Shown: one piece after another, positions 22,439 to 64,000 of the stretch | Layout: each line of letters begins with the position of its first letter | Position numbering within the stretch: position 1 is the stretch's first letter | NCBI GenBank assembly: GCA_029959195.1 | Contig: CP114126.1 | Location: forward strand, 1,550,001-1,614,000 | DNA length: 64,000 nt | Source of the DNA: Dictyophora rubrovolvata | Lineage: Eukaryota; Basidiomycota; Agaricomycetes; Phallales; Phallaceae | Direction of reading: 5' to 3' | The notes under the pieces: generated by a model | Told to the model about the DNA's origin: nothing | The model's input: only the letters and a program-made list of their open reading frames with translations | Database searches by the model: none | Made by a program: the position numbers and the translations under genes

Positions 22439-25400
22439 TTACCCATCGCAAGCGACGATCTGGGATCGCCATTCTACGATGACTTTTGACAGACGGGTCG
22501 AGTCGTCAACAGCCTCAGACTGATTGCCGCTCCGCTGATCTTCTTCCCGCTTACCATCCCCTTCGTCTCCGCTTTGTTCTTCTGTATTATCTTCATCATT
22601 TGAGCTATACTCATCAAGTGTTTCGTCCGATCCGTGTATTCGCAGATATAGTTGAGTCATGGGGTGAGGCTCTACCATATATCCCCTCTCAGCCGGCGTC
22701 AGCACAGGTCCAAGATACTCCCTTTCCAAGATCTCTTCCCAAGAGACTAGTTCGTCTGGCCATACAACGCATTCCCAAAGGCCTGCCATATGGAACGCGT
22801 GTTTCTGCAAAGACAATAGTGCTAGTCCGACACGAAGTCGATCCAAAAACCACGGTTCTGATACCTTCGCCGATCCAGTTACAGGTGGAAAAGAGATGGT
22901 GTCGACGATGCAAGACAAAAATGAGTAACGATGATCATCCTGCATGTAAGGTATGTGTGCAACGATGGTAACTTCTTCAGCGTCGTATATTAACCCAAAC
23001 AGCATGAACCACGGTGGAAGGTCTCTTGTAGGAGCAAGACCCTGTTCGAATCGCAGTTGCCAGTTTATGAGATGCGTCTTCAGACTTGGTTCGATTGCTT
23101 TCGCTAATTGACGTAAGGCTTCTGATTTATCTTTCGGTCGTGAACATGACAATGCCGGGGAGCACGCAAATTCATCGGGCCATAAAGTAGGACCTTCAAC
23201 AGCTACCACCAACGCCGGATTCAGGATCGTTGCTCGAAGACTGACGTCGGGTGTTAATGGTGTCATTTCAATAGGAACAGTCTGGACAGAATGTAAGAGG
23301 AGCGAGAAGTCAACCTGGGGGGATCCGCCGGTCAGTGCAGACGGAAAGCGTGACTCAGTATCACTGAAATTCGAATTAGCTTAATGCTTTTCTCTAACTT
23401 ATTTGAAACCTCACTATGTCAACCAACAGCCCGGCGTACACATGAATGGGCTAGAGATAGCCATCTTCGCTTCGTACTCGTGCGAGACGTATTGGAAGAC
23501 ATCTTTGAAATGTTGCAAGGAATGAACAGCATTTGGACAGAGATTTTCCAGCGGTATGGGTTTATATACGTCTCCTCGTTCTTTGCGAGCAGGCGTTGAA
23601 AGATAGAAGTCGGGAGAGAATGATTGTGGATCAACATGCCTTCTCCGCAGCTCCTCTTTTGTCAATAGAGCAATGTCATCTTTGCGACCCGAAGTCCATA
23701 TCTGCAGTACCATTTTTGGAAGGTTTGGAATTAAGTGGTATGGGCCTTTACGGCTCTACATTAACAGTCAGAAATAATAACATAACCAATAACCAATACA
23801 ACTTCGTCTTTTTTTTGTATCGTGAACCAATCTTCAGGCAAGTAAATCTGTCCAGAGCTTCGCGATCGCCAGTTGTCAATGAATTCGACAAGGAAACATT
23901 TTCGAGGAGCCGCGAAGGTATCCATGTCAAGAAGATCTAAAAATAACCAATTGCTTGATACAGTATCGCTCTGACTATTATTTTATCAGAAATGCGTTCA
24001 TATGTTGGTTATTCGCCTACCACCGAGATGAGGTATCCAGTCCTGTCCGGTAAATACAGTCTAATAAGCATTGAGTGGCAGCCTCAGCAGCTTCATTTTC
24101 AACGACCGGCTTGTCATTTACGCATTGAACTGTTTCGAAGGGATGTGATTCCTCGAGTGCTTTCAACTGAGGAGCCCCTAGCACTGGCAACATTGGAGAA
24201 ACAGGATTCAGACTATCCAGAACTTGACATATCCTCTTGGTATGTCGTTGTATTGCTAGCAAAACAGAAATTCGGTTCGCACGTCGGAAAAAAGCCCGAT
24301 CAGCGAAAAGTTCGAAATCTTGGAATGGAGCACAGACAAATTCCCATTGCAATGGTACACCATCGTTATCACATACCAAAATCTTTGGTGTGAAGGTGTA
24401 ACAATGGGCATCAAGTGCATCATAAACGATTCCGTGAATAAATAACCAGTCAGGAAGAACAAATATCTTCTGTGGAACACAGACAGCCTTTAGTCACTAA
24501 TTCCTTCACAAATTTATGTCTCACCTCATCTGTTGTTCGCTTCCGTTTCCAATCATTGATTGCATAGACAAGTAACGCCTTCAGGGTTTCTTCAACTGCC
24601 GATGCCAGGGGAATTAACATTTCCGGAATTTGGCAATCATCAAGTTTTCTGTTTTGCAAAGCCCATGCAACACATCTGAGTTCGCTGATAGTCCGGAGAT
24701 GTTGGGGGAGGAACACAATCGGAACGAATCCATCTCTCGTCCATTGAGGATGCGAACTTCGTTTAAATACGTGAATCGAGTCGATCATTTCTCTTGTGGA
24801 AAGGCTGCGGAATGACATGATGAATCGTGTGGAGTGATCTGTTGAATACCAAAATACCATACCCTGGCCGTATAATCCCAAACCAATCAAACAATGAAAA
24901 CAAAAGCAACGAGGTATTGCGTTCGGCATCCATTTCACATCGACATATCGTTAAACCAGGATATGTAAACATGTGTAGCATCGCCCTAGATAGTCTTGTA
25001 TAATATTTCAAGGGGTTATGTTTGTCGGGAATGATTTGAGGCTGCGGAAAGTGAAGGTCGTCAATTTCAGCCACACTACCATACGATACATAGGGAATTG
25101 GAGGTCGAAAAAGGAAATTTGCCAAATCAATGAGATAGTTGAAATATAGCTCCACAGATTTGAAAAGAATGGAGGAAAGCACGTCAGTATCTTCAGCAAA
25201 GGTCTATCATGTTGTGAGAATCTATTAGAAACACGCGGAATTCTGAATGTTCTATGTACCTTCCAGTCTTGGGGAATCATGAGCATCCTCATCTTATGAT
25301 CTAATTGATATTGATACTTGTTTAGTGCCTCTTCAACGGTTTTGCATGTGCATCTCAGTCTATATTCTCCGTAACCAGGGAAGCTTGAATATGCTTTCCA

Positions 25401-25490
25401 AAGGTTGCAGTCTAATGGAAGACCATTCCTAAACAGAGTATGTAAGTTTCATCTTGAACATCAGAGAGCAGTCGCTTACCTTTGAGGCAT
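22439..25490 (-). CDS. g1, large protein of an unrecognised paired gene family, intact copy, 8 exons
   Basis: An 892-residue protein of unknown function. Exons on the minus strand: 25490-25480, 25428-25260, 25203-24863, 24804-24525, 24469-24021, 23974-23803, 23755-23424 and 23363-22439, all GT..AG and open. The first exon is only 11 bases (MPQR), and the same tiny exon occurs in the other two copies that reach the start. Visible regions: 'RCTCKTVEEAL', 'MFTYPGLTICRCEMD', 'DGFVPIVFLPQHLRT', 'WLFIHGIVYDALDAHCYTF', 'FFRRANRISVLLAIQRHTKR', 'KCFLVEFIDNW', 'LPPWFMLFGLIYDAEEVTI' and an acidic Ser/Asp/Glu tail. There is no signal peptide or membrane segment, so it is probably intracellular. It starts back to back with g2 at 26034. 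It could be a host multigene family or the larger gene of an undescribed mobile element. Confidence 0.8.
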
Positions 25491-26033
25491 GTTGTATGTC
25501 GGTATGTCAAAACTTCAAGCGTTTGAAAAAACCGCATTTGTTCTGCGTCACTCGATGTCACGCGTTATGGTGACTTGTCGAGTAGTCTCGGCACAAGCCC
25601 GGGCCTCCGTGTGACCGATGCAGTTTCACTCGGCAAAACGGCTCTGGTGCAAACCTAACCCAAATAATCGCAACTCACTGGGGATTCAGACGGAGGGGAA
25701 TACTGTGCAGTGAGGCAAAGGGGCGGGATGTGACAAACATGATCAATCCGAGTTGTTTTTAGAAATTTGCAAGACGTGAATTTCAGCACTCGCCATTTAG
25801 AACATAGAAAAGTCAGCGGCTCAGAGTTACCAGGATTGGTGGTATGGTATGATCTCGGCTCGCCCGTTATACAATAAAATTTCAGCTTCTGAACTCGAAA
25901 TTACTAAGCCATCGATATCGATAATCATGACAAAAAGATATAATAATAATATGCCTGCGGCCTGCCGGACTTGATACATATCTTTTTAAGTCGGACTGTA
26001 GTCTGTCGCCCTTTGTTTCGACGATTATAGTCT
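25491..26033. promoter_or_regulatory. Divergent g1/g2 promoter region, unit I
   Basis: A 543-base gap between the two divergent starts. The g2 side has a block just before the ATG (about 25990-26033) that is conserved in the copy near 63335-63385. The same head-to-head spacing recurs at 63.3-63.7 kb, which suggests a shared bidirectional promoter. Confidence 0.55.
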
Positions 26034-27558
26034 ATGGCTCCCCGGCAAGCGAGTATACCGACAGTGGCGATTAAAAGACCAAGTGTTGACCTCAAACTGA
26101 AAAAAAAAACTAATCAAGCACAACAAGCGAATACGGGTCGAATAACTCGATGGCTTGAGCAGCATGGCGTCCCAGTGAATAGTACCCCCCAGAAGAAGCC
26201 CAAAAAGTCCAAGAATCCGGAAGACTCAAAAACTCAGTCTTCTAAAATAAGTATTACTGCAAGGTTTGTGATATTCTTCATTGTGTTACATGCGCTCAAA
26301 TCCATTTCAGTAATGTTACAACGATGGAGCTAGAGGCGCATTTTAAGTGGACATTTCAGTCATCTATAGACAACTTGAATGTCGATGATAACGATGAATT
26401 GATGTTCGATAGCGTCTCAGAAGTGCTGAACGGGGTGGCACAATTGTCTAGATCGGGTTTTACATCCCAAGGCAATTCCTTGGACGGGCACATCGGAACA
26501 ATGATAAGTCTTCCGTCGGAATGGATTGAAAATACGGAATCCATGGTTAGAGAGTCAATTTTTTCAGAAACATCACTAACTGTTTATGCAGCCGTCAGAT
26601 AGCAGCGAAACTCATTGGCGTCGAGTTCTCATAACGTTTTTAGCTATCCATGATCCTAATCGTAATTATGCCAATTTCCTCTCGACCAACAAAATTAAAG
26701 CCGCCACGTACCCAAACCCGAACATTTTTCACATGCACAACGAAAAATACGAAGGAGGTGGAATTGCGTGGACCCTAACGAACGCATTAATGTCGCCGAC
26801 ATTCAAAGAACAACCTAACACAGAGATGGAGGTAGAGCATCTGATCTCCAGTTTTCTAAGTGGTTTTCTCAATGTGACAGAGTGCGAAACGAGCTCGTAG
26901 GTCCCCGCAGCTAAATCTATCCTCACCATTTTATGCACTATAGCACTAGAAACGCCCAGTTAAAATTCAGGGAAGAAATTACATGCTTTGGTTCTCATTC
27001 ACATCCTGACTTCGCCGCTCGTATCAAAAACGGAATTATCTTAGATGAACGTTTACATTACGACTTATATCCGGCAGTTTTTTTAGCAGAGGCCAAAAAG
27101 GAACCTCTTCCTGAGACACAAACTATACAGTCCGCTGGTCATCTTCAGGTTCCTTCTGGGTCTGAGAAGAGTTTGGGTATCCAATACCCACTTCCGAGAA
27201 ATGCGAAAACATTTCCTATGGTAGCACAAATGGCATTCGCGGCATACCCCTCGCTAGTGATAATCATTGCGTTCTTGATCAGGTTATGGCGGTCTGAATC
27301 CAAAGTCAAACCTAGCCGCGAAGTATTAGCTCAATTCTTTGTTATAAACCAACTTGGGATATTAAAAAGTGATTATAGGACTATCAGATCCCTGAATGGG
27401 CTGTTATTTATAGTATAGGATACACGGCAAATGGAATCCTTGTTTACGCGTTTTTTCCCCGTGTCATCGATTGGGACGAAAACAACTTTCCGAAGAAATG
27501 GGGATTCATGTCAGTCATAGTCTCCACCGAATTCGTCAATATCTTCACAGAGAAGTGA
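26034..27558 (+). CDS. g2, partner protein with PD-(D/E)XK-like motif, unit I, 5 exons
   Basis: A 448-residue protein. Exons: 26034-26263, 26311-26545, 26592-26896, 26944-27340 and 27379-27558. The N-terminal 75 residues are basic ('KKKTNQAQQ', 'PQKKPKKSKNPEDSK') with a short helix 'RITRWLEQHGVPVN'. The central part reads 'HPDFAARIKNG', then 'PAVFLAEAKKEPLP', i.e. P-D, about 26 residues, E-A-K, followed by 'VAQMAFAAYPSL', which fits the Gln/Tyr helix of PD-(D/E)XK nucleases; this is inference. A hydrophobic segment 'YPSLVIIIAFLI' overlaps it. The last exon stops early inside an inserted element (27556-28116); about 38 further family codons resume at 28122. It is divergent from g1. Function is not known. 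Confidence 0.68.
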
Positions 27559-28116
27559 TACGTGCGCAACAGGAGCGAACAGGAAGGAAAGGGAACCAAG
27601 TGGTAAGTGTGAGTCGAGGAAAAATAGTATAGGATAGGAATTGTAAATATAGAGAAGTAGAAATAAAGCTTATTTGCTCAATTTCAGACTGAGGGAAAAG
27701 CTGCGATACAAAACTAAGGAATTCAATGATATTGTTGGTCTTAAAACCGCGGATTTTTATATACATGAGTAACTCAGTGTCCGAGTGAAAAACGGAACAC
27801 TTGTAATCTAAATGTGAACAAAACGAGGTAAAACCATGTGGAAAAATGAATTCATGGTCTGGGGATTGGAATTTAAGAGAAAGGAAAAGGGTTTCGCCGA
27901 GTGATTAAAATGTAAAATAAGGAGAAAACATGAAAATGGAATGCGAAACCAAGGAAAAAAACACGACACGGCCTTTATAATTGTCTTAGGGAACACAATG
28001 TCGGCGCATATAAGAGGGATGGGCTGTGCGAGTATTGGTTATTCCGGCTCGGGTAGTACTAAGCCCGAAGCATCAATTTCTACTGTTTCTCCTTGTACAG
28101 CGTTTTCGCGTGCGAC
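27556..28116. mobile_element. 561-base insertion in the last exon of g2
   Basis: Comparison with the other g2 copies shows uninterrupted coding sequence here, so this block is an insertion. It is flanked by AGAAG at 27551-27555 and 28117-28121, a probable 5-base target duplication. The ends (TGATACGTGCGC... and ...GCGTGCGAC) show no convincing long inverted repeat. No coding potential is recognised, and the family is undetermined. Confidence 0.62.
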
Positions 28117-28121
28117 AGAAG

Positions 28122-28235
28122 GAACGATCACAATGTTTTAATATGATTCGATTCCTTTTGATGCTCCAGCAGCACGTGAATCGATTGAAAGACCGGATGA
28201 AGAATTTGAGTTTACCAGAGGAGTTTTTAGACTAG
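28122..28235 (+). other. C-terminal coding tail of g2, separated by the insertion
   Basis: This reads 'FLLMLQQHVNRLKDRM' and ends 'LPEEFLD' before a TAG. The same tail occurs at 42440-42536 and, on the minus strand, at 55915-56030 (LPEEFLG). It is probably no longer translated with the main frame. Confidence 0.65.
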
Positions 28236-28506
28236 TTGTGATATCATGCAGGCTATTACGTATTTGTGTACTTGTTTTTTTGTTTCCCATTTTAGTAATA
28301 CACATGTCTATATGTCAATATCAATGTATGCTACCTTTTCCCCCGAATTTAAGATCCTCATCTCATAACTTAAACTCAATGCATTGTCACAGCTCTATTT
28401 TTTTCGCAATGTTGACTAAATTACTAAATGTTTCTGGCGGCCTTACACTGAATGTGGCCAAAGTATGGTCAAGTGTCTTCTATCCTGAAGGGAGAATTGT
28501 GTACGA

Positions 28507-28738
28507 TTACATGCACCATTTCACCAGAATCTGAGGGTCAAACCTCATGAGAGATTTCCATTCTACGATGACTTTTGACAGACTGGTTGAATCGTCAAAA
28601 GTCTCGGGCTGATTGCTGCTCCGCTGGTCTTCTTCCCGCTTACTATCATCTTCATCTCCACTTTGTTCTTCTGTATTATCTTCATCATTCAAGCTATATT
28701 CATCAAGCATTTCATCTGATCCGTGTATCTGTAGATAT
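28507..28738 (-). pseudogene. g1 tail fragment, unit II
   Basis: This matches the acidic C-terminal end of g1 ('EDNTEEQSGDEDDSKREEDQ') and the sequence just before it. The match breaks at about 28738 and resumes at 30096-30135 beyond a 1.36-kb block of inserted elements. Only about the last 95 codons of the gene are represented. It lies tail to tail with the g2 copy ending at 28235. Confidence 0.75.
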
Positions 28739-29608: not shown

Positions 29609-30095
29609 TGTTGAGGACACAGATGAGTTACAAAGAGAAACACGTATAATTGAAGGATCACGTAACAAGCTGACATAGCTCTTTTGCTGAGGAGACGGAA
29701 CGAACTGATTCGGGAAACAGTTGATCTTAGCGGTTACAAGGCTCGGTCACTCATATATGCGAGTTCACCATGACAATCTCATTAGGGTTATAAATGACAT
29801 TCAGAAAGTCAGTACCTCAGGAGTTCCGTTGTGTAATGAAGTTTTCTTTCCCCCATTTATCTCTTTTTCCATACTTTCCGATTTTCTCGTCCCTTTTCTC
29901 TTACTACTCTTAGATTACTTAGATACCAATTTCCAAAAAAGTCCGCTACAAAACGGAAATAAATGTATATAAAAAACCACTTAGTTCGATACAAAAAGAA
30001 TCATCACATCTTTCCCCTTTTATATTTCTCTTGAGATACACATTCGCTGGTTCCCTCATCCTTCTCTGCCTATCTTCTGATGGCGCATATCAACA
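29609..30095 (+). mobile_element. 487-base dispersed element D (solo LTR or tRNA-derived SINE)
   Basis: It begins TGTTGAGGACA and ends GCGCATATCAACA, so it has TG..CA ends and a 6-base inverted repeat, like a solo LTR. A related copy lies on the minus strand at about 32035-32509 and a degraded one near 59050-59445. Inside, 'CTTAGCGGTTACAAGG' followed about 35 bases later by 'GAGTTCACC' loosely recalls tRNA A and B boxes, so a SINE is the alternative. It has no coding capacity. Confidence 0.55.
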
Positions 30096-30180
30096 GTTGA
30101 GTCATAGGGTGAGGCTCTATCATATATCCCCTCTCAGTATTGGTTCGTCAGACTGAACATTGCTGTAGTAAGGTCAATCT
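30096..30180. other. g1 tail piece joined to g1 3' flank
   Basis: Bases 30096-30135 continue the g1 tail interrupted at 28738. Then 30136-30180 switches to the 3' flank found downstream of the intact g1 (22349-22393). This junction marks where two g1-bearing units were joined. Confidence 0.6.
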
Positions 30181-30318
30181 TGTTGAATGAAGCACTGAGG
30201 AGCTTCGGTCAAAAGACGGAGTCTTTGGGCCGGCGCCTCAAGATACTATGTACAGCGCGTTATGTAATATATAAGTTCTAATCTACCTAGTACCGTGACC
30301 GCATCGTAAACTCCAACA
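30181..30318 (+). mobile_element. 138-base mini-LTR (TRIM-like solo LTR)
   Basis: It starts TGTTGAATGAAG and ends CTCCAACA, with TGTTG/CAACA inverted ends. It is flanked by AATCT on both sides (30176-30180 and 30319-30323), a perfect 5-base target duplication. The empty site is visible in the homologous flank at 22384-22400. It contains a TATATAAG box near its middle. The size fits a TRIM solo LTR. Confidence 0.75.
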
Positions 30319-30365
30319 AATCTTTGATAATGTGAGGAGGTTAATGTATTGTGAACCAGAACCTG

Positions 30366-31246
30366 AGAATTACCCATCACAAGTGACGATCTGGGATCGC
30401 CATTCTATGATGACTTTTGGCAGACAGGTCGAGTCGTCGACAGCCTCAGACTGATTGCCGCTTTGCTGGTCTTCTTCCCGCTTACCATCCCCTTCGTCTC
30501 TGCTTTGTTCTTCTGTATTATCTTCATCATTTGAGCTATACTCATCAAGTGTTTCGTCCGATCCGTGTATTCGTAGATATAGTGAGTCATGGGGTGAGGC
30601 TCTACCATATATCCCCTCTCAGTCGGCGTCAGCACAGGTCCAAGATACTCCCTTTCCAAGATCTCTTCTCAAGAGACTAGTTCGTCTGGCCATACAATGC
30701 ATTCCCAAAGGCCTGCCATATGGAATGCGTATTTCTGCAAAGACAATAGTGCTAGTCCGACATGAAGTCGATCCAGAAACCATGGTTCTGATACCTCCGC
30801 CGATCCAGTTACAGGTGGAAAAGAGATGGTGTCGACGATGCAAGACACAAATGAGCAATGATGGTGATCCTGCATGTAAGGTATGTGTGCAACAATGGTA
30901 ACTTCTTCAGCATCGTATATTAACCCGAATAACATGAACCAAGGTGGAAGCTCTCTTGTAGGGGCAAGACCCTGCTCAAATCGTAGTTGCCAGTTTATAA
31001 GATGTGTCTTCAGACTTGGTTCGATTGCTTTTGCTAATTGACATAGGGCTTCTGGTTTGTCTTTTGGTTGCGAACACAACGATGCAGGAGAGCACGCAAA
31101 CTCATCTGGCCATAAAGCAGGTCCTTGAATGGCTACCACCAGCGCCGGATTCAGGATTGTTATTCGGAGACTGATGTTGGGTGTTAATGGTGTCATCTCA
31201 ATAGGAACAGTTTGGACAGAGTGTAAGAGGAGGGAGAAGTTGTCAG
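30366..31246 (-). pseudogene. g1 C-terminal fragment, unit III
   Basis: This corresponds to most of the last exon of g1, from 'MTPLTPNISLRITIL' to the acidic tail, about 90% identical by eye to 22439-23330. It carries about one reading-frame break. The match ends abruptly at 31246, where a MITE begins, and the rest of the gene is not found to the right. Confidence 0.82.
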
Positions 31247-31464
31247 GGCTACTCTCTCAGACTAGAGGGAGGGGATCCTAAGCAAAATATATTCTAGGAA
31301 TAATACTAACTCACCTAGAGGGAGGGGATCCTAAGAGAACAAACTTAGGGATCCCTCCTCTAGGGCTACTAACTATATACTATGAAACACAGCGAAGGTC
31401 GTATGTGGCCCTCAGTTCATGGACTGGGTGCGGATATGTGCCAGTTCCGGACTTTTAGCTGGTG
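31247..31464 (+). mobile_element. MITE family M1, truncated copy
   Basis: It starts TGTCAGGGCTACTC, the same terminus as the copies at 36449 and (inverted) 41007. Inside it the motif CTAGAGGGAGGGGATCCT occurs twice and once inverted, which can fold as a hairpin. The copy stops at 31464, where the other terminus of an oppositely oriented M1 copy begins. Confidence 0.7.
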
Positions 31465-31574
31465 TCAGGGTACGCTAGCATCGTCCCTTTCGTTTCCTCC
31501 ATTTATCTTTGGTTCCTATCTATTTTATTTATTTTCACATTTCTCGTATTTTATCCCACTCCTTGTTTTCCCCT
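31465..31574 (-). mobile_element. MITE family M1, second copy, first part (continues at 32722)
   Basis: It starts TGTCAGGGTACGCTAGC, the opposite terminus of M1, and follows the copy at 40602-41007. At 31574 it is interrupted by an LTR, and the same MITE sequence resumes at 32722-32762. So this MITE was here before the LTR arrived. Confidence 0.68.
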
Positions 31575-32721
31575 TGTCACGCCCCACATGACCCATAGTC
31601 TAAATCTGGACATATCCAAACTCTGTACTCTATTCTGTCCCACTCCCCCAACTCTGCACTCTGCATTCTTGTCCGTACCCCATATCACAGAATTTCCTTA
31701 TGGGGAATTCTGTCCCGTGCACTTAGCAACAAGGTACCTAGATTATATTATCATCATCTTGGCTTGCACTAGTCAATTCCCACTTTCCCTTATTTGTCAT
31801 TATCTCCATTTACATAGTTCTGCTCCCTCCTGTATTTAAACCCCAGCTTTCTCAGCTGTGGATCCTCAGTCTGAATATAATCAGTTTAATCAGTTACTCT
31901 CTCATCTCTAATCTGTCTTGTACTCTTAATCCGTATTGTGTAGTTGGCTTGGACTGAATGTTCGAGTCAACTCATACTTATTGTTCATATCATCTTCGAC
32001 GATGTGGACTTGTACTCCATCGTCGTATCACACATTGATATGCGCTGTCAGGAGGTAGGCAGAGAAGGATGAGGGAACCAGCGAATGTGTGTTTTGAGAG
32101 AATTTGTGAAAGGGAAAGATGTTCTTCTTTTCTTCATATAGAACTAGGTGGTTTTTATATATATTTATTTCCGTTTTGTAGCGGACATTTTGGAAATTGG
32201 TATCTAAGTAATTTGAGAGTAGTAAGAGAAGAGGAATCAGAAAGTATGGAAAAAGAGATAAATAGGGAAAGAAAATTTCATTACACAACGGAACTCCTGA
32301 GGCACTGACTTTCTAAACATTGTTTATAAGGTCTAATGAGATTGTCATGGTGAACTCGCATATATGAGCAACCAAGCCTTGTAACCACTAAGACAAGCTG
32401 TTTCTCAAATCATTTCGTTCCATCTCCTCAGCTAAAGGGCTATGTCAGCCCATCACGTGATCCTCCAATTATATGCGTTTCTCTTCATAACTCATCCATG
32501 TCCTCAACAACGTCATATCACATGTCATTGGACTTGTATGTACTTGTGTACTTCCTCGTATTCCGAAATCAAGGGATATCATAAGCTGGGCAAGTGGGCA
32601 TAACATATAAGTTGAAGCCAAGTCCCTCACCCCGTACTTCAGTACTCCATTTCCTGTCTGACCCCGTGGTCCGGACTTCTTTGGAACTATCCGGAATAGC
32701 TTCGGGCCACTGTATGTAACA
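31575..32721 (-). mobile_element. Solo LTR, family B, carrying a nested element D
   Basis: On the minus strand it runs from TGTTACATACAG to GGGGCGTGACA. It is flanked by CCCCT at 31570-31574 and 32722-32726, a perfect 5-base target duplication. Without the nested insert it is about 670 bases. The sequence 'GCCCACTTGCCCAGCTTATG' near its start is shared with the family B copy at 33527 and with family A. It has no internal coding region, so it is a solo LTR of a retrotransposon, probably Gypsy or Copia. Confidence 0.72.
32035..32509 (-). mobile_element. Element D nested in the family B LTR
   Basis: This is a second copy of the element at 29609-30095, in opposite orientation. It interrupts the LTR. 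The host LTR sequence CGTCRTATCACA appears on both sides (about 32022-32034 and 32511-32523), suggesting a target duplication of about 13 bases. That is longer than the 5 bases usual for LTR elements and favours retroposition of a SINE-like element. Confidence 0.55.
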
Positions 32722-32762
32722 CCCCTTTCCTTCCATATTCCCATTTTTCCCTTCAATGGGCG

Positions 32763-33526
32763 CTGTCACGCACCAAAATCTTCCCCACTTGGTATTTAGG
32801 TTGTCCTTCCTAAAGTGGACATTCAAATTCCCCTTCCTGGATAAACAGCTTCCAACTACCCAAATTCCTTCATTCAGAAATAATAAAATGTTCAAATTTC
32901 ATCTATCATCCTCTCTTTCCCTCAAAAATCCTACTTCTCTCTCTATTCCCTGAGAACCATCCCCAGAAGAAGATGTCACTCCTCCGTTATTTCGTTATAC
33001 TCACGATAGTCCCTGCACTCACAATTTGGATATTGAGACAACTTTGTTCACTTATTATTCACCTACTCCAATCCTCGAACTTGATCCCATGACTCTCTTC
33101 CCTGTTTACTCGCCCGAGATTCCCCGAGATATCCATAAGTGTCGAAGTTCAGATATCATACACCCCTTCATGGCCTTCGGAAGAGAAGTTTATGTTGAAC
33201 GAGAATTAAGATGGTTTACAGTCACACATGTTTATTCTACTCAAGCATCAGCCTTACAAGATTCATATCATGTTTGGTTAATGACACAAGTTGGATTAGA
33301 ATACATGGTAATGGTCCTCGACATTCTAAGTCGGTGGATCTTATCAACATGTAATCACCAACCAGTCTTAGGATTTTATTGCTCAGCAAATCCTATTCCC
33401 AAAGAACCCAAAGCATCTTCCAATAATCCTTCATCCCCTCATTCCCCAACTTCATCCAATCTAACCATACAACCTCCCCGATATCAACAAACCCTTCGCA
33501 TACTTCAATGTGTTTGTTCTGGATTC
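32763..33526 (+). pseudogene. Unrecognised coding region interrupted by an LTR
   Basis: The frame from about 32968 to 33520 has good protein character: 'FTYYSPTPILELDPMTLFPV', 'FMAFGREVYVERELRWFTVT' and a Ser/Pro-rich linker. The family is not recognised. A solo LTR with a GATTC target duplication is inserted right after it (33527-35670). More coding-like sequence follows at 35818-36135, perhaps the same host gene. No start codon could be fixed. Confidence 0.4.
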
Positions 33527-33971
33527 TGTTACATACAGCGGCCCAAGATAGTTCCGAAGAAGTCCAGGCTGCTGGGTATGACGGGGGATGGAGTACTGAA
33601 GTATAGGGTGAGGGACTTGGCTTCAACTTATATGTTGCGCCCACTTGCCCAGCTTATGATATCCCTCAATTTCGGAATACGAGGAAGTATGCAAGTACAT
33701 ACAAGTCTGACAACATGTGATACAACGACGGAGTACAAGTCCACGTCGTCGAAGATGACGTGAACAACAAATACGAGTTGACTTGAACATTAAGTCCGAG
33801 CCAACTACGCAATACAGATTAAGAGTATGAGATGGACTAGAGATGAGGGTAACTGATTAAGCTGATTATATTCAGACTGAGGATCCACAGCTGAGGGAGC
33901 TGGGGTTTAAATATAGGAGGGAGCGGAACCACATAAATGGGGATAATGACAAATAAGGGAAAGTGAGAATT

Positions 33972-34518
33972 ACATACATGAAAAGACATCCCAGGGTGTT
34001 TGTGGGTGTTTTTTTGTATATTACGTAAAATTAGTGTAAGCAAAAAAGATGCTTTGTAGTGTGCGAGGCGCAGCCGAGCTAGCCAATCACGAGTTGCTGG
34101 GACGGGCTGTTGACCAATCACGAGGCGCAGCCGAGCCACAGGTGAACGTGAGTGAATAAGCGCAAGTCAACACTCCCACTCAAATGCATTTACCAAATTC
34201 GAGGCCCTTCCAGTTCTACTGTGAATTAACATGAGCAACCACCTGAGACAATAAGATAAAATTAAGTCACTGAAATACTAAGATATAAGATAAATATTGA
34301 GATAAATATAAGAAAAATAGGAGAGAACTAAATATTCAAGAATAACTTGAGACTGTGGTTTGGGATATTATTATAGGGTTCTAAAAATTATAATTTAATA
34401 TTAGATATTACAAATGTTATGGATTTATTTGTGGAACAAAGTTGAAGGGACATGTATGTATTTTTGTGAGAATTAGTAAAGTGGGTGTAGGGTATATATA
34501 CATAGCTTTGCTAAGTAC
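33972..34518. mobile_element. Inserted sequence inside the family B LTR, AT-rich
   Basis: This is the left part of the 1.5-kb insertion. A pair of direct repeats 'GAGGCGCAGCCGAGC' occurs at about 34068 and 34120, each next to 'CCAATCACGAG'. The remainder to 34518 is AT-rich with no coding. The element type is not identified. Confidence 0.4.
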
Positions 34519-36448: not shown

Positions 36449-36783
36449 TGTCAGGGCTACTCACTCAGACTAGAGGGAGGAGATCCTAAGCAAAATGTAT
36501 TTCGAAAAAATACTAACTCACCTAGAGGGAGGGGATCCTAAGAGAACAAACTTAGGGATCCCTCCTCTAGGGCTACTAACTATATACTATGAAAAAATGG
36601 CGAAGGCCATGGCTCTGATGGGAACGGGTGCTCAGCGCCCGTTAGAGGGAAAGAAGGGAATATGGAAGGAAGGGGGAATGCAGGAAATGGGATAAAATAC
36701 GAGAAATAAGGAAATGAATAAGATAAACCAGAACTGAAGATAAATGAAGGAAAATAAGGGGATGACGCTAGCGTACCCTGACA
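36449..36783 (+). mobile_element. MITE family M1, complete copy
   Basis: 335 bases from TGTCAGGGCTACTC to CGCTAGCGTACCCTGACA, so the terminal inverted repeat is TGTCAGGG followed by a few weaker matches. Internal CTAGAGGGAGGGGATCCT repeats are as in the other copies. The CAGGG terminus fits the YARNG rule of hAT elements. It is non-coding, and no clear target duplication is seen. Confidence 0.72.
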
Positions 36784-37826: not shown

Positions 37827-37982
37827 ATAACATTACAATGATGGAGCTAGAGGCCCACTTCAAGTGGTCATTCTAAAAAACTCTGAACAGTATCCCTACT
37901 AATGACAAGAAATTAAGACTCAACAGCATCTTAGAAGTTCTGAATGGGATAGAACAATTGTCTAAATCGGGCTTTAGTACAT

Positions 37983-41505: not shown

Positions 41506-42541
41506 GTTTGTGGCCACCCATGATCCTAATCGTGATTATGTCAATTTCCTCTCGACTGACAAAATCAAAGCCGCAACATACCCCAACCCAAACATATTTC
41601 ATATGCACAATGGAAAATACACAGGAGGCGGAATCGCACGGACACTAACGAACGCGTTAATGTCGCCGACATTTAAAGAACAACCTGACACGGAGATGGA
41701 GGTAGAGCATTTGATCTCCAGTTTTCTGAATGGTTTTCTCAACGTGACAGAGTGCAAAACGAGCTCGTGAGTCTTCAGTTAAACTGTCCTCACCATTTTA
41801 TGCACTATGACACTAGAAATTGCCCAGTTGAAATTCAGAGATGAAATAGCATGCTTTGGCTCTCACTCACATCCTGACTTCGCCACTCGTATCAAAAACG
41901 GAATGATCTCAGAAGAGTGTATACATCATGATTTGTATCCAGCAATTTTCTTCGCAGAGGCCAAAAGAAAAACTCTACCTAAAAAGACGCAAACTATGCA
42001 ATCCGGCCACCTTCAGGTTCCTTCCGAGTCGGAGGAAATTTTAGTTTTCCAAACCCCACTTTCGAGAAACGCGGGAAAATTTCCTATGGCAGCACAAATG
42101 GCGTTCGCGGCATACCCTTCACTCGTAATAATCATTGCATTCTTGATCACGCAATGGCGGTCCGAAGCCAAAGTAAAAAAACATAGCCGCAAAGTATTAG
42201 CTCAATTCTTTATTATTTATAAACGGAGGATATTGAAAAAGTGATTATAGGATTACCAGATCCCTGAATGGGCTGTTATTTATGGTATAGGATACGCGGG
42301 AAATGGAATCCTTGTTTGCGCATTTTTCCCCCGTGTCATCGAATGGGACGAAAACAATTTTCCGGAATGGGGATTCATGTCACTCATAGTCACCACCGAT
42401 TACATCAATGTCTTCACAGAAAGGGAAAGATCAAGACATTTTGATTTGATTTGATTCCTCCTGTTGCTTCAGCAACATGCAAATCGATTAAAAGACCGTA
42501 TAAGGTTTTTAAGATTACCAGAGGAGTTTTTAGGCTAAGTG

Positions 42542-42999
42542 ATATCATACATACTAGTAGCTCATTGTGTGTATGCTTTTTTTCATTCTTGAGTTAGTTT
42601 ATATGTCAATAAAAATTTCGTAAATGATTGTATTCGTTACCCAAGTACTGAAAGACATGGGCGTTTGATAACGAGCATGAGAGAAAGGACATTTGTTCCC
42701 ATCATCATTGATCTAGAGATTGTCGAAGTTGCCGAAAAAGAACACACCATATTTTCAAATCGCTAAGAGGCCTATCCATGATTACCTCAAATGAACGAGC
42801 TAGTATCATCGCAACACTTGCTGCATGTTGCAAGGCCGACCATCTTCATGATCGCGATTGATGATATGTTCGTTATCGTGGGTAGTCGCTGAGTTCACCA
42901 ATAGTTTCTACCAATCGATGCAGTATGGTTTACTATGGGAAAAGGCTTATTTTTTTTTGAAACAACTTGAACTTAGTTTATCATTAGCATTTAAGGAAG
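42542..42999. other. Gap between g2 and g1 3' ends, with a conserved block
   Basis: Around 42788-42915 a block (frame 'NERASIIATLAACCKADHLH') is also found, inverted, at about 62740-62880, again between the 3' ends of g2 and g1. It could be a remnant of a third gene or a shared 3' region. The rest is AT-rich and empty. Confidence 0.45.
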
Positions 43000-44125
43000 A
43001 AGAATCTCGCGATCGCCAATTATATGACGCTTCTCGAAAGGCTAATCGTCATTACCGGTATGTTCTCTTTGCTCACTACCATGGGCCCTCTGTCTTCACT
43101 CCTATCTCCTTCGCGTTGTTCCGCCCAGTCTCCTTCATCGTTCGAGACAATCATACTACACTCATCAAGCGTTTCGTCAGATCCATGTATCCTCAAATAG
43201 AGTTGAGTCATGGGGTGAGGTTCGACCATATATCCTCTCAGCCGGCGTCAGCACAGGTCCAAGATACTCCCTTTCCAAGATCTCTTCCCAAGAAACCAGT
43301 TCGTCTGACCGTACAACACATTTCAAAAGTGTGGCCATATGGAATGCGTGTTTCTGCAAAGACAATAGCGCTAGTCTGACACGAAGTCGATCCAGAAACC
43401 ACAGTTCCAATACCTTCGCCGATCCAGTTACAGGAGGAAAAGAGATGCTGTCGATGACGCAAGAGACAAATGAATAACGATGGTCATCCTTCATGTAAGG
43501 CATGTGTGCAACGATGGTAACTTCTTCAGCGTCGTATATTAACCCAAACAGCATGAACCACGGTGGAAGGTCTCTCGTAGGAGTAAGACCTTGTTCGAAT
43601 CGTAGTTGCCAGTTTATGAGATGCGTCTTCAGACTTGGTTCAATTGCTTTCGTTAATCGACGTGAGACCCTCGATCTGCCCCTCGGCCGCGAACATGACG
43701 ATGCCGGAGAGCACGCAAATTCATCAGGCCATAGTCCTTGCATCGCTACCACCAATGCCGGATTCGGAATCGTTGCTCGGAGACTGACATCGGGTGTTAA
43801 TGGAGTCATCTCAATAGGAACGGTTCGGATAGAATGTAAGAGGAGCGAGAAGTCAACCTGGGGGATTCGCTGGTCAGCTCGGATGGAAAGCGTAACGCTG
43901 ATCACTGAAATTCGAATCAGCTTAATACTTCTCTCTAACTAAAAACCTTACTATTTCAACCAAAAACCCGGCGTACACATGAACGGGTTAGATACGGCCA
44001 TTTTCGCTTCGTACACATGCGAGACGTCTCCGTAGCTCTTCTGTCAATAGAGCAATGTCATCTTTTCGATTGGATGTCCATGTCTGCAGTACCAGCTTGG
44101 GTAGGTCGGGCAGGAAGGTTGAGTT
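43000..44125 (-). pseudogene. g1 C-terminal part, unit IV
   Basis: This covers the last exon of g1 and a little of the exon before it (near 44030-44120, 'KDDIALLTEE'-like). The long frame at 43177-43905 keeps 'LPPWFMLFGLIYDAEEVTIV' and 'KTHLINWQLRFEQGLTPTRD'. The acidic tail is altered, and the 5' two thirds of the gene are absent. It faces the g2 remnant tail to tail. Confidence 0.8.
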
Positions 44126-55883: not shown

Positions 55884-56640
55884 TACATTTTACGGGATCA
55901 CTTCAAGTTGGCCTAAAAACTCCTCCGGTAATCTTAAATCCTTCAGGTGATCTTTTAATCGATTCGCGTGTTGTTGTACCATCAACATGAATTGAGCCAA
56001 ATTGAAACGTTCTGATCTTTTGACACATTGAGGAGCTTGGTGGCGACTACAAGTGACATAAATCCCCATTTCTTTGGAAAATTGTTTTCGTCCCATTCAG
56101 TGACATGGGGGGAAAAAGGATTCCATTTCCTGCGTATCCTATGCATACCATAAATCACGACCCACTCAATAGCCCTATAACCGACGTACCTCTTGTTTAT
56201 GTTCTTTGCCTTTCGGTTGCGATCACCATTGGGTGATTAGAGATGCGATAATTGTAATGAGCAGCAGATAGGCGGCGAATGCAAGCTGTGCCACCATTGG
56301 AAGTTTCTCTGCATTATCTTGTGACTTCCTTAGGGATTGCAACCCTGCTGAACCCATATCCTAAGGAACTTGGGGATGACCGGAATCTTCTTCTGGCGAT
56401 TGCATGTAAATAAATCGGATCTTGGACGGATTTTGAGATAATCCCCTCCTCTATACGAGTCACAAAGTCGGGTTTTGGACGAGAACCAAAGCACATTATT
56501 TCGTTCTCTGAATTTCAGCTGGGCATTTCTAGTATCATATGAAATGGTGAAGATATGTTTGGTGGTGAAGGCGTACGATGTCGTTTCGCACTCTGGTACG
56601 TTCAAAAAAATCATTCGTGAGACTACAAATTCACCGCTCT
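55884..56640 (-). pseudogene. g2 remnant, unit VI
   Basis: The matching parts in order are the end of exon 3 ('NVPECETTS'), exon 4 with 'FGSRPKPDFVTRIEEGIIS', the 'VAQLAFAAY'-like stretch near 56240-56310, and the tail 'HANRLKDHLKDLRLPEEFLG'. Several breaks interrupt the frame. The 5' half (exons 1-2) is missing; instead a GC-rich kinase gene follows at 56.8-58.8 kb, separating this g2 from its expected divergent partner at 59565. Confidence 0.78.
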
Positions 56641-57079: not shown

Positions 57080-58828
57080 ATGTCAGGCTCTCCTGATGAT
57101 CTCTTTAACTATTCATCGGGACGCTGGTTGTAAGTCTTATGCATACATGTTGTTCTCTGGCGTATACATATGTCTAATCCGTAATCTCGCACATTCAGCG
57201 TCAACAATGATCTTCGCCTCGCAGAGCGCAGACGCGAGTTCGACGTCGACGAGCTTTGTCGACTTGCGGCGCAGTCTGTTGGTCGGACTTTGCAAGATAT
57301 CCACACATTTGTAAAGCTCGCCGAGGGCGGCTTCAACCGGACTTTCCTTATTACCATGCATGACGGCTTCGAGATGGTAGCCCGCATCCCGTACCCCGTC
57401 ACGGTCCCCAAGTTCTACGCCATCGCTAGTGAAGTGGCTACAATGCGTTTCCTCCGTTCCTCTGGGCTGCCTGTTCCCGAGGTTTACGATTACTCTCCTT
57501 CATCGGACAACGCTGCGAAGACGGAGTATATTTTCATGGAGTTTATGAGAGGCACGAAGCTCAGCGACGTGTGGCTAGAGCTGGAGGAACCGGATATCGT
57601 TTCTGTCTTGCGTCAACTCGTTCAACTCGAATCTCGCTTGATGTCAATTCCGTTTCCAGCTGGTGGAAGCCTCTACTATACCAGCGACCTGGAGAAGAAG
57701 GTGGCACGGAGGACGAGCATCCCGCTCAACGACGAGCAGCGCTTCTGCGTCGGTCCCGATGCCCGGCTGCATATGTGGTACGGAAGGAGGTCGCAGCTCG
57801 ACGTGGACAGGGGACCATGTACGCCACTCTCTGCCTTTTCGTTTGTCGAACTTTCCAGAACTACTACTTCGAGACTATAGACGAAAACGCCAAGGCAGCG
57901 CTCGTAGCAGCAGCTCGCAAGGAGCTGGCGTATCTGGAAAAGTTTGGTCGACCGCTACTACCGTTCCAGCGTGAAAGAAGGGAGGCCTATGGGTACAAGG
58001 AGCAGTCACCTTTGGACCACATCAAGAATCTCGAACGCTACCTTCTCATCGCATCCTCGCTCGTCCCCAAGAACTTAGCCCTCCATCATTTCCGTATCAA
58101 GCCTCCCGATCTCCAGCCCAGCAATGTCATCGTGTCGATACCGCCCGACTCTAACCAGTTGAAAATCGTGGGCCTGCTCGACTGACAACATGCCTCGATC
58201 TTACCCATGTTTCTCCTCGCTGGTATACCAGGTCGCATGCAGAACTACGATGACCCGGTCTCGCAGGCTCTGATCACCCCACCCTCACTGCCGGTGAACA
58301 TGGACGAGCTGGACCAATCCGAGCAGAACCACGCGATGGGACTCTACCACCGCCGTCTCCACTTCCACTACGTCAAGAACACGGAGGAGCACAACACGCT
58401 CCATCACGATGCATTGTCGGACCCCGTGTCCACGTTCATCTATCGCCTTTTCGACCAAGCTGGTGCTCCATGGGAAGGTGAGACCCACGCGCTGAAGACT
58501 ATGCTGATAGAGGCAACGGAGATATGGGGGAAGCTTATGGGGGAAGAAGGTGTGCCGTGTCCAGTCGCGTTCGAACCCAAGGACCTACACAAGATGAAGG
58601 AGCTGAGCGCAAAGCTGCAAGTAGCGGACGAGAATTTTGAGGGGTGCCGAGGCATGATTGGCTTCGAGATGGAGACCTGGGTGTCCAACGAACACTACAA
58701 GATGGCTATGGCCCTCGCCGAGCTGCTAAAGCTGAGAGTGTTGAAAGAGATCCTGGAGGAGGAAGTCCAGGCCAAGACTGAGGCGAATTGGTTCTTGAAC
58801 AATATGGACGAAGAGGATTACATGTAAT
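57080..58828 (+). pseudogene. APH-family (aminoglycoside-phosphotransferase-like) kinase, disrupted
   Basis: This is a fungal phosphotransferase-fold kinase related to the AIM9/FMP29-like group. Exon 1 is 57080-57129, exon 2 starts at 57199. Motifs: 'KLAEGGFNRTFLITMHDG' (Gly loop), 'MVARIPYPV' (the Lys is replaced by Arg, as often in this group) and 'SEVATMRFLRSSGLPVPEVY' (helix C Glu), with 'HHFRIKPPDLQPSNVIVS' where the catalytic HxDLxxxN is expected and 'GLLD' at the metal-binding D. The invariant DWQ that should follow reads D-stop-Q: a TGA at 58183-58185, after which the same frame continues for over 200 codons to 58828. The junction after 57818 also does not keep frame. GC content and codon use are well above the neighbours, so it looks like a recently arrived, now dead, copy of a gene from elsewhere in the genome. 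Confidence 0.75.
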
Positions 58829-59564: not shown

Positions 59565-62500
59565 ATGCATCAAAAGTAAGTAATAGCCCCCCAACATTGA
59601 AAATAAAACTTACTTATTTTGATTAGAAATGATTTTTCGTCGCACTCCAAGCTTTGGAAAGCATACTCGTGGTTTCCTGGTCACAGCGAATATGAGCTGA
59701 GATGCACATGCAGAACCATTGAAAAGGCACTACACGAGTATAAGGAACAATTAGAACGTTGGATGAAGATGCTCATGATTCCACAAGACTGGAAGGTAGT
59801 TAGAACGTTCAGAATTTCACGTGCCTGCCTCTTTTAGACTCTCACAATATAAATATTAGATCTTTGCTGAGGATACTGACACGCTTTCCTCCATTCTTTT
59901 CAAATCCGTGGAGCTATATTTCAACTATCTCATTGATTTGTCCAATTTTGCCCGACGTACAACTCCCTATGTATCGTATGGTGGTATGACTGAAATCGAC
60001 GAGCTCGACTTTCCGCAACCTCAAATCATTCCTGACAAACATGACCCCTTAAAATACTACACAAGACTATCTAGGGCGATGCTGCACATGTTCACATATC
60101 CTGGTTTGAAGATATGTCGCTGTGAAATGGATGCGGCACGCAATACCTCGTTGCTCTTATTTTCATTGTTTGATTGGTTTGGGTTTATACAGCCAGGGTA
60201 TGGTATCTTGATGTTCAATAGATCACTCCACACGATTCATCATGTCACTCCGCAGCCCTTCCACAAAAGAAATGATCGACTCGATTCGTGTATTTAAGCG
60301 AAGTCCGCATCCTCAATGGACAAGAGATGGATTCGTTCCAATCGTGTTTCTTCCCCAACGTCTTCGGACTGTCATCGAACACAGACGTGTTGCATGGGCT
60401 TTGCAAAACGAACAATTTGATGATTGTCAAGTTCCGGAAATGTTAATTCCCCTAACATCGGCGGTTGAACAAACCCTGGAGGCGTTACTTGTTTATGCAA
60501 TCAATGATTGGAGACGGAAGCAAACAACAGATGAGGTAAGACATGATCTTGTGAAAGAGCTAGTGACTAAGAAACTGTCTACACTTCACAGAAGATATTT
60601 GTTCTTCCTGACTGGTTATTTATTCACGGAATCGTTTATGATGCACTTAAGGCCCATTGTTACACCTTCCTACCAAAGATTCTGGAATGTGACAACCATG
60701 GGGTACCATCACAATGGGAATTCATCTGTGTTCCAGTACAATGTTTCGAACTTTTCGCTAATCAGTTCTTTTACCTCCGTGCTAATCGAATCTCCATGTT
60801 GCTGGCAATACAACGGCATACAAAGAGGATTTGTCGAGTTCTTGATGATTTGGATCCCGTTTCTCCAATGTCACCAGTGCTAGCGACTCCTGAGCCTAAG
60901 TCCTCGAGGAATCCCATCTTTCTGAAACAGTCCAATGCGTAAATGACAAGCCAGTTATTGATAAACAAAATGAGGCCGCTGGGGCAGCCGCCCATTGCTT
61001 ATCGGACTGTATTCACCGGGCAGGACTGGAAAACCCGTCTCGGTGGTAAGCAAATAGCGAATGTACGAACGCCCTTCTAATTGCATAATAGTCAGAGGGA
61101 TCCCACACCGAGCAATTGGTCGTTTATGGATACTCTTCTTGACATAGATGCCATCGCAGCCTTGGGTCCTCAGAAATGCTTTCTTGTCGAATTTATTGAA
61201 AACTGGCAATCGCGGACTTCTGGACAGATATACTTACCTAAAGATTGGTTCACGACACAGGAAAAAGATGAAGTTGTATTTGTTATTTGTCAGGTTCTCA
61301 TTTCTGACTGCTATTGTAGAACCGTGATGGCCCATACTACTTGATTCCAAACCTACCCAAGATGGTACTGCAGATATGGACTTCGTGTCGAAAAGATGAC
61401 ATTGTTCTATTAACAGAAGAGGAGCTGCAAAGGAGGCATGTTGATTCACAATCATTCTCTCCCGACTTCTATCTCTCAACGCCTGCTCGCAAACAACGTG
61501 GAGACGTATATAAACCCATCCCGCTGGACAATCTCTGCCCGAATGCTATTCATTCCCTAGAACACTTTAGAGACGTTTTTCAATATGTCTCGCACGAATA
61601 CGAAGCAAAGATGGCTATATCTAGCCCATTCATGTGTACGCCGGGTTGTTGGTTAAAATAGTGAAATTGTTTTGGTTGGAGCGACGTATTGAGCTGATTT
61701 GAATTTTAGTGATACCGAGTCACGCTTTCCGTCTGCGCTTATCAGCGAATCTCCTCAAGTCAACTTCTCGCTCCTTTTACATTCTATCCAAACTGTTCCG
61801 ATTGACATGAACCCGTTAACACCTGACGTTAGTCTTCGAGTAACGATTCTGAATCCGGCATTGGTGGTAGCCGTTCAAGGACCTACTTTATGGCCAGCTG
61901 AGTTCGCGTGTTCTCCGGCGTCATCATGTTCACGACCGACAGATAAATCAGAAGCCTTACGTCGATTAGCGAAAGCAATTGAACCAAGTCTGAAGACGCA
62001 TCTCATAAACTGGCAACTACGATTCGAACAGGGTCTTGCTCCTACAAGAGACCTTCCACCGTGGTTCATGCTGTTTGGGTTAATATACGACGCTAAAGAA
62101 GTCACCGTCGTTGCACACATACCTTACATGAAGGATGATCATCGTTACTCATTTGTGTCTTGCATCATCGACACCATCTCTTTCCCACCTGTAAACGGAT
62201 CGGCGAAGGTCTCGGAACCGTGGTTTCTGGATCGACTTCGTGTCGGACTAGCACTATTGTCTTTGCAGAAACACGCGTTCCATATGGCCCAACTTTGGGA
62301 ATGTGTTGTCTGGCCCAATGATCTAGTCTCTTGGGAAGAGATCTTGGAAAGGGAGTATCTTGGACCTGTGTTGACGCCGGCTGAGAGGGGATATATGGTC
62401 GAACCTCACCCTATGACTCGACTGTATTTGCGGATACATGGATCGGATGAAACACTTGACGAGTGTAGCTCGAACAATGAAAATAATAAAGACGAACGAA

Positions 62501-62577
62501 GCGGGGAAGATATTGAAGATGATCGAAGTGAAAACGAAGAGGGTAGTGAGCGGGGACATACTGGTACCGACAATTAA
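59565..62577 (+). pseudogene. g1, nearly complete copy with about one break, unit VI
   Basis: The same eight-exon layout as the intact copy: 59565-59575, 59627-59795, 59860-60197, 60256-60535, 60592-61045, 61092-61272, 61320-61651 and 61710-62577. Every splice site is conserved, which independently confirms the unit I gene model. About one reading-frame break is seen in the middle, so it is called a pseudogene, though a sequencing error is possible. Conserved stretches include 'MFTYPGLKICRCEMDAARN', 'KIFVLPDWLFIHGIVYDAL' and 'WFMLFGLIYDAKEVTVVAHI'. The acidic tail is diverged and shorter. Confidence 0.8.
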
Positions 62578-62889
62578 CCTTTCGAGAAGCGTTTGAATCC
62601 ATATATTCACGATCCCTATACTATTCTCTTTGAAATTTTAACCGCTAATCATGACTAAATTGTTTTCAAAATTGCTCATTCAAGCCTTATATTATAGTAA
62701 ACATGCATCAATTGGACATTACTATTGATGTTAACCGTAGAATTATGAAGAAGGCGGAGCACTGGGAGATGAACTCAGTGACTAATAACCACGTCAACGA
62801 ACACGTCGTCGATCGCGATAAAGAAGACCAATGCATCATGCCGGAAGTGTTGTCATGATACTAGCTCGTTTGCGATGTCACCATTCAAT
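62578..62889. other. Gap between g1 and g2 3' ends, conserved block
   Basis: On the minus strand, about 62740-62880 resembles 42788-42915 ('ERASI' region). In both units it lies between the 3' ends of g1 and g2. It may be a relic of a third reading frame or a common 3' region. Confidence 0.45.
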
Positions 62890-63334
62890 ACGTTGCCTTG
62901 GGATATAAATCGCGATCTAGACATTGTACTATCCCGTTCAGCACTTCCGAGATGCTGTCGAGTCTTAATTTCTTGTCATTGCAGACACGTTCTACAGATG
63001 TTTGGAATGACCATTTGAAATGGGTCTCCAGCTCCACCATCGTAACGTTACTGAAGTGAACTCGAGCGCATGTTAGTAACACAGTGAAGAACATTACGAA
63101 CCTTGCGGTAATACTTATTTTAGAGTACTGGGTTCCTGAGTGTGCAGGATCTTTGGTCTTTTTGGGCCTCTTCTGATTGGTATTGTTGACTGGGATGCCA
63201 TTCTTCTCAAGCCATCTAGCGATTTGACCCGCCGTACTTGGTTGTTCTGTTTGATTCGTTCCTCCTTCCTGCCGATGATCAATACTTGCTCTCTTAATCG
63301 CCACTGCCAGTATGCTTGCTTGACGGGGAGCCGT
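62890..63334 (-). pseudogene. g2 5' fragment, unit VII
   Basis: Exon 1 (63334-63102) and part of exon 2 (63050 to about 62890) are recognisable: 'RQEGGTNQTEQPSTAGQIAR', 'WLEKNGIPVNNTNQKRPKKT' and 'NVTMVELETHFKWSFQTSVE'. The codon at the position of the unit I start reads ACG. The match ends abruptly at about 62890, so the nuclease-like part is absent. It is divergent from the g1 that starts at 63747. Confidence 0.8.
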
Positions 63335-63746
63335 AGATTATAATTGTTGAAACAAAAGGCGACAGTCCGACTCCAAAGATACGTATGAAGGCGGCATATT
63401 ATATCCCCCCTCTCATAATTATCGAAGTCGATGGTTTAGTAATTTCTGTAGGCCATTACAGACGATATCAATGTAACCTGAGTAAATTCATGGCTCGGAT
63501 AGTCATGTTTGCCGTATCCTGCCTCCCTGACAGTATTTCCTCCATCTGTAATCATCTCGGTTCATACCAAGCCGCCGTTCCGAATTGAAGCTCAGTTGCC
63601 TAACCCCGTACCATAGCCGTTTTGCCGAGTAAAAAGGGACGGTCCCGGACGGATAACGGCTTGTGCTGAGTTTATTCAGCACGTCACCTTGACGCGTGAG
63701 TACTCGTGAGTCGTGACATTGGGCAACGTCTTGTTCAACATACAAC
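63335..63746. promoter_or_regulatory. Divergent g1/g2 promoter region, unit VII
   Basis: 412 bases between the two starts. The block next to g2 (about 63335-63385, containing GTCGGACTGTCGCC on the minus strand) matches the block before the unit I g2 ATG. The rest is diverged from 25491-26033. Confidence 0.5.
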
Positions 63747-64000
63747 ATGCTTCAAAGGTAAGCAACTCCTCTCTTTAATGATCAAGATAAAACTTACATA
63801 TTCCGTAAGTAATGGTGTTCCATTAGAATGCAACCTTTGGAAAGTATACTCGAGGTTCCCTGATCACAGAGAACATGAACTGGAATGCACAAGCAAAACC
63901 ATTGAAGACGCACTACAGGAGTATAAAAAACAATTAGACCATTGGATGGAAATGCTCGTGATTCCCCAGGACTGGAAGGTACATATAAGATTCATGTCAC
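63747..64000 (+). CDS. g1, 5' end only, runs off the window, unit VII
   Basis: The first two exons are visible: 63747-63757 (MLQ plus the split codon) and 63810-63978, reading 'NGVPLECNLWKVYSRFPDHR' and 'MEMLVIPQDWK'. The second intron starts at 63979 and the window ends. It is open as far as seen, so it may be a further intact copy. Confidence 0.72.

Follow-up and report, generated by a model that had tools for sequence, protein, structure and literature searches.

The genome of the basidiomycete Dictyophora rubrovolvata (28.2 megabases (Mb), 11 contigs) carries two genes, here called g1 and g2, that stand head to head and are repeated, as whole or broken units, on contig C10 and on a second chromosome (contig C8). 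The DNA analysed, termed the window, is a stretch of 64,000 nucleotides of C10 (CP114126.1, positions 1550001-1614000), and coordinates refer to it unless another contig is named. An initial annotation had described such a head-to-head two-gene unit, repeated whole or in part within the window, and the g1 and g2 copies located here bear this out. The first unit contains the following features:

22439..25490, minus strand: g1 of unit 1 (U1), putative double pseudonuclease, 898 amino acids (aa), 8 exons, with borders common to four other copies
25490-25480, 25428-25260, 25203-24863, 24804-24525, 24469-24021, 23974-23794, 23755-23415 and 23363-22439, minus strand: exons of g1 in unit 1
25900..25922, plus strand: 23-base-pair (bp) element containing the palindrome ATCGATATCGAT, intergenic in unit 1
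26034..27558, plus strand: g2 of unit 1, putative PD-(D/E)XK nuclease, 442 aa, C-terminal end cut off
26034-26263, 26311-26545, 26592-26896, 26944-27322 and 27379-27558, plus strand: exons of g2 in unit 1
27562..28110, plus strand: dispersed repeat within the last exon of g2 in unit 1 (as queried, ends approximate)
28115..28281, plus strand: displaced 3' end of g2 in unit 1, coding in other copies

The eight exons of this g1, the first of 11 bases, are those originally described, and its length is corrected from 892 residues to 898 codons. Exon borders had been called identical between copies; they do correspond in the copies open to comparison, apart from the first g1 exon, whose length varies from 8 to 35 bases. 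Five exons were also correctly assigned to g2, which reads as 442 aa in U1 and as 477 and 486 aa in two other copies (about 450-485 residues had been given); the earliest g2 searches of the genome and of Pfam relied on a 408-aa model whose last intron was provisional. In U1, g2 is split by a dispersed repeat of about 550 bp in its last exon, which leaves the C-terminal end at 28115-28281. At least 40 copies of this repeat exist in the genome, namely the one in U1 and 39 more that are 80-95% identical to it. A non-coding 3' block had been thought to travel with g1; similarity to another copy does exist past the g1 stop, for at most about 150 bp. The predicted isoelectric point is acidic for g1 (4.9-5.2) and lies at 6.7-8.9 for g2, two of these three g2 copies having no normal C-terminal end.

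Copies were located by blastn in a region of 110 kilobases (kb) that includes the window and in a 50-kb part of contig C8, and by whole-genome protein searches for both genes, whose counts are lower bounds. Full-length g1 is present five times: U1, A, B, C (69.3-72.5 kb, outside the window) and C8 (from 1187933), with the fragments at 28558, 30319 and 43027 and the C8 relic left out of this count. The frame is open in four of these, copy A being frameshifted. Sizeable g2 copies number six (U1, D, E, Bx, C and C8; the relics on C8 and contig C9 and the piece at 37828 are excluded), and just one of them, that on C8 (486 aa), is fully intact. The copies retain their introns, which rules out retroposition and agrees with the duplication at the DNA level that had been proposed.

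Shared ancestry and the candidate active site

The two proteins had been taken to be unrelated, a view ruled out by profile-profile comparison (hhalign; three g2 and four g1 sequences in shallow profiles, each E-value being for a single comparison). The comparison of g2 with g1 gave 97.3% and E 2.2e-11 over 295 columns, placing g2 columns 137-471 on g1 columns 47-354. In a rerun against the N-terminal half of g1, g2 scored 98.5, with at most 22.8 in 40 column shuffles and 18.4 for reversed g2. The two halves of g1 scored 40.3 against each other (40 shuffles, at most 23.4), and g2 scored 35.0 against the C-terminal half (40 shuffles, at most 24.8). Copy A was left out of whole-g1 protein alignments, and only its last exon was aligned elsewhere. 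Six-frame genome searches recovered g1 exon 5 in five copies with the C8 g2 as query (E 2e-6 to 1.4e-4) and exon 5 of g2 with g1 as query (best E 4e-6). A g2 match on contig C5 (E 0.27) was judged by eye to be an unrelated open frame.

Intron phases repeat in the same manner, being 2,0,2,0 in the three g2 copies listed and 2,0,2,0,2,0,2 in the three g1 copies listed. Positions were mapped on a full-length-forced alignment that was built from sequence only, without intron data. Intron 3 of g2 coincides exactly with g1 introns 3 and 7. Intron 4 lies one residue off g1 intron 4 and lacks a counterpart in the second half of g1. Intron 2 is offset from g1 introns 2 and 6 by four and six residues. 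For intron 1 the offset from g1 introns 1 and 5 is seven residues, this last comparison falling in a poorly aligned region. Taken together, the profile scores, searches, and intron phases and positions indicate that g1 and g2 share ancestry as one family, and that g1 is most simply an internally doubled g2-like gene that has lost one intron.

The motif of g2 consists of PD, then E-x-K, then Q, in the order seen in PD-(D/E)XK nucleases, whose motif names are used here. The P, D, E, K and Q residues, together with an upstream E, are invariant in all four g2 sequences aligned, in which 141 of 411 ungapped columns are invariant overall; copy C was cut ahead of its tail, where its frame differs from its relatives, and D, E and Bx were left out. 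Copy D also keeps the PD, E-x-K and Q residues, and the catalytic motif is intact in four of the six sizeable copies. One of the four aligned sequences, P0002 (480 aa), is a relative from another source and shares 56% identity with g2 over 99% of its length. It reads as a single open frame on a 2,873-base contig, as expected of a spliced transcript, and by eye it passes all four intron sites. In the N-terminal half of g1, by comparison, Q or R, Q, L and P replace D, E, K and Q in all four copies aligned. The C-terminal half, judged by eye, keeps PD and Q and has E or Q followed by G-P at the E-x-K position.

Array layout and the intergenic element

Neighbouring units meet tail to tail near 28.3/28.6, 42.6/43.0 and 62.5/62.9 kb, in line with the initial annotation, and the array extends beyond the window (g1 to 66.7 kb, g2 at 67.3-68.9 kb, then g1 copy C). 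The remaining features in the window are:

28558..28738, minus strand: g1 3'-end fragment (blastn)
30319..31240, minus strand: g1 last-exon fragment
37828..37976, plus strand: g2 exon 2 fragment
41506..42582, plus strand: g2 copy D, exon 4 motif kept, N-terminal part missing, stop ahead of the C-terminal end
43027..44106, minus strand: g1 3' part, tail to tail with g2 copy D
55898..56609, minus strand: g2 copy E, broken
59565..62543, plus strand: g1 copy A, frameshift in exon 5
62870..63446, minus strand: g2 copy Bx, 5' part only, with ACG in place of the start ATG of other copies
63421..63443, minus strand: 23-bp element of unit B
63747..64000, plus strand: g1 copy B, open frame, continuing to 66.7 kb outside the window

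Copy E was probably once paired with g1 copy A, and unit B joins an open g1 to a truncated g2. The pairs sought outside the window do exist: the cluster on the second chromosome holds one intact unit (C8a) and a relic pair at 1207.9-1210.1 kb. Contig C9 carries a stray N-terminal piece of g2, with no g1 piece among the C9 matches listed. Tight head-to-head linkage of the two genes is kept in U1, B, C, C8a and the C8 relic, the stray piece on C9 being the exception.

Most of the interval between the genes hardly aligns among units. A stretch of 23 bp, ATTACTAARCCATCGAYWTCGAT, is kept in U1, B, C and C8, and a 24-base window from C8 matches U1, B and C at 22, 21 and 22 of 24 positions (at most 15 in 30 base shuffles). 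Allowing up to three mismatches, a genome search for the element returned four sites, all without mismatch and all between g1 and g2; the exact fit of these four arises by construction because the pattern was written from them, so the result is that there is no other site in the genome. The reversed pattern gave no genome site at the same threshold. The element ends in a palindrome that is perfect in three units and keeps its arms in B. This palindrome lies 78-122 bases ahead of g2 in U1, C and C8 (B, whose g2 start is lost, is not counted) and 89-421 bases ahead of g1 in all four units.

Several other features accompany the array. Nested inverted and direct repeats occupy 29609-41000 between g1 and g2 fragments (for example 29609-30093/32035-32509 and 34519-35032/39965-40490) and are probably mobile elements. 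Near the C8 relic, a tandem repeat with steps of about 240 bp lies at C8:1213362-1214551. A protein-coding stretch at 57185-58827, flanked by g2 copy E and g1 copy A, resembles by eye an aminoglycoside-phosphotransferase-type kinase, although two pieces of it gave no Pfam match. A C2H2 zinc-finger protein (Pfam) at 44934-46295 stands amid g1 and g2 fragments, and a Suppressor-of-forked/Rna14-like resident gene lies in the array region at 47135-50228, where 48757-49254 matches Pfam Suf above the cut-off and another piece below it. Further away, a DyP-type peroxidase gene is found at 15242-16376 (Pfam match for 15242-15814).

Selection and possible roles of the pair

Ratios of nonsynonymous to synonymous substitution rates (dN/dS; Nei-Gojobori, with g2 copy C cut ahead of its tail and D, E, Bx and g1 copy A left out) are 0.14-0.30 in all six g1 pairs and 0.22-0.29 in all three g2 pairs, and they indicate that both genes are under purifying selection. 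The lowest values, 0.08-0.12, come from the last part of g1. Synonymous distances (dS) between C10 and C8 copies are about 1.7-2.2, near saturation, so that the pair is old. When g1 copies are compared in steps of 200 bases, C resembles B more than A throughout the four steps at about 1.3-2.1 kb (95-98%). Most of the remaining steps of C are nearer to A (94-97% at 2.1-2.9 kb and 83-96% over the initial 1.3 kb, with B favoured in one step of six), and the pattern suggests a gene-conversion-like mosaic among g1 copies. Shared exon borders together with selection on the protein are found here as in a tandem-duplicated gene family, and the sequence comparisons indicate that the units have spread by tandem duplication.

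We propose, with middling confidence, that g1 and g2 are a duplicated pair of paralogues, in which a nuclease of PD-(D/E)XK kind (g2) and a doubled pseudonuclease partner (g1) share one divergent promoter. Here, g2 would cut nucleic acid. A g2-like gene that was doubled internally in tandem and lost its active site would have given rise to g1, a double pseudonuclease with an acidic tail. Both proteins would be made together from a divergent promoter region bearing the unit-specific palindromic element, and g1 would most likely bind g2 or the substrate of g2, restraining or directing the enzyme. The linkage would then be kept because an unbalanced nuclease is harmful. Among the three guesses offered by the initial annotation (a selfish two-gene element, a nuclease-plus-partner system or a fast-turnover host family), the second fits best, g2 being a plausible nuclease by its motif.

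Several observations weigh against this proposal. A PD...ExK pattern alone is weak evidence, and g2 matched nothing significantly in Pfam, NCBIfam, PADLOC or PDB sequences, nor did g1 in Pfam or PDB, the two libraries searched with it. No library or structure search supports a nuclease fold, and it is the motif, together with its loss in g1, on which the identification of g2 as a putative nuclease is based. Single-exon AlphaFold models, built with 2 and 4 close rows, were poor, with mean predicted local distance difference test (pLDDT) values of 42.8 and 43.7, and a Foldseek search with one of them found nothing at E 0.001 or better. As for g1, its C-terminal half is less clearly dead because PD and Q are kept, and less clearly related because its hhalign probabilities are low (54.5% with the N-terminal half and 22.6% with g2); when the two halves are aligned directly, the alignment is weak and places intron 7 13 residues off. 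Finally, a protein database yielded a g2 relative and none for g1 (about 8000 candidates scored for each), and only one of the six sizeable g2 copies is fully intact; the pair therefore need not always act together. Searches of viral and prokaryote contigs gave no relatives. Neither of the findings named beforehand as refuting the initial annotation was made: the searches gave no match above the cut-off to a known family, and further pairs exist on a second chromosome.

Poison-antidote action, defence and repair are possible settings of the proposed nuclease and partner, and their probabilities overlap with that of the general proposal. One possible special case, although somewhat on the improbable side, is a host gene family of stable function, for instance in DNA repair or in protection from mobile DNA, whose active subunit and double inactive subunit are joined in a complex. 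It is consistent with purifying selection on both genes over the synonymous distances separating C10 from C8, with the particularly low dN/dS in the last part of g1, and with a relative of g2 elsewhere at 56% identity. Local copy-number turnover and the many broken copies fit it less well, and no wider distribution was seen in the collections searched, which hold few or no fungi.

A second special case, an unlikely one, is a poison-antidote element, in which g2 would be a killer nuclease, g1 an antidote evolved from it, and the unit would persist because cells or spores without g1 are harmed. The better preservation of g1 (four of five full-length copies open, compared with one of six sizeable g2 copies intact), the open g1 beside a truncated g2 in unit B and the tight linkage of the two genes all point this way, and the palindromic element, found only in the units, resembles those of autoregulated toxin-antitoxin loci. 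In addition, killing by SPOK of Podospora is reported to need a predicted PD-(D/E)XK domain, and resistance another domain of the same protein (PMC6660238). Yet four of six g2 copies have an intact motif, which means that g2 has not plainly been discarded, and at the whole-gene level the dN/dS of g2 gives no hint of an arms race. The counts are also small, and the g1 copies are not independent because they look like mosaics of each other. The more specific picture of a eukaryotic killer pair, whose antidote is a doubled dead copy of its own toxin under one palindrome-bearing promoter, perhaps self-bound, is more doubtful still.

It is also unlikely, to the same degree as a poison-antidote element, that g2 is no nuclease at all, the motif being due to chance and the two proteins being paralogues of unknown activity. 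The lack of any library match or usable fold would be expected in that case; against it stand the invariance of the motif in all four g2 sequences and the replacement of four catalytic residues in the N-terminal half of every g1 copy aligned.

Least probable by far is a mobile DNA element carrying both genes: several copies on two chromosomes with a stray g2 piece on a third, and imperfect direct repeats on both sides of the C8 unit (72% over 567 columns), speak for it, but two clusters hold all listed places except the C9 piece, the flanks of about 600 bases of U1, C and C8a share no inverted match longer than 10 bases, and neither g1 nor g2 matched a transposase, integrase or reverse transcriptase in Pfam. 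The direct repeats may instead derive from the tail of a tandem unit that once stood there; the left one adjoins a stretch, partly of simple repeats, that may be the tail of another g1, which is what a collapsed tandem array would leave.

Some known systems bear a resemblance to the pair. Pairs of an active enzyme and a dead paralogue are already known. Prokaryotic type II toxin-antitoxin modules consist of two linked genes with a palindromic operator, as g1 and g2 may do, whereas the partners here are homologous, divergent, intron-rich and eukaryotic, with toxicity only putative. The HD1/HD2 mating-type genes of mushrooms likewise form head-to-head pairs repeated within one locus; this identity was rejected, as neither g1 nor g2 has a homeodomain match in Pfam. 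Within the PD-(D/E)XK (restriction-endonuclease-like) superfamily, g2 shares PD, ExK and Q in order, but matches no Pfam, NCBIfam or PDB entry significantly. SPOK is described as a duplicating fungal family with a predicted PD-(D/E)XK nuclease, a Q motif and a protective function (PMC6660238), all of which recall the present pair. SPOK is, in contrast, one protein with a kinase, while here there are two divergent genes and the partner would be a dead copy of the nuclease; with no Pfam kinase match in g1 or g2, membership was rejected. The pair may work somewhat like SPOK or toxin-antitoxin modules but is not assigned to either.

Among the open-access papers listed in literature searches, no description was seen of a nuclease and a doubled pseudonuclease that are linked head to head and duplicated together. 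Should the proposed relationship hold, g1 and g2, a family without a Pfam match, would offer a testable case of a toxin, defence or repair enzyme giving rise to its own regulator.

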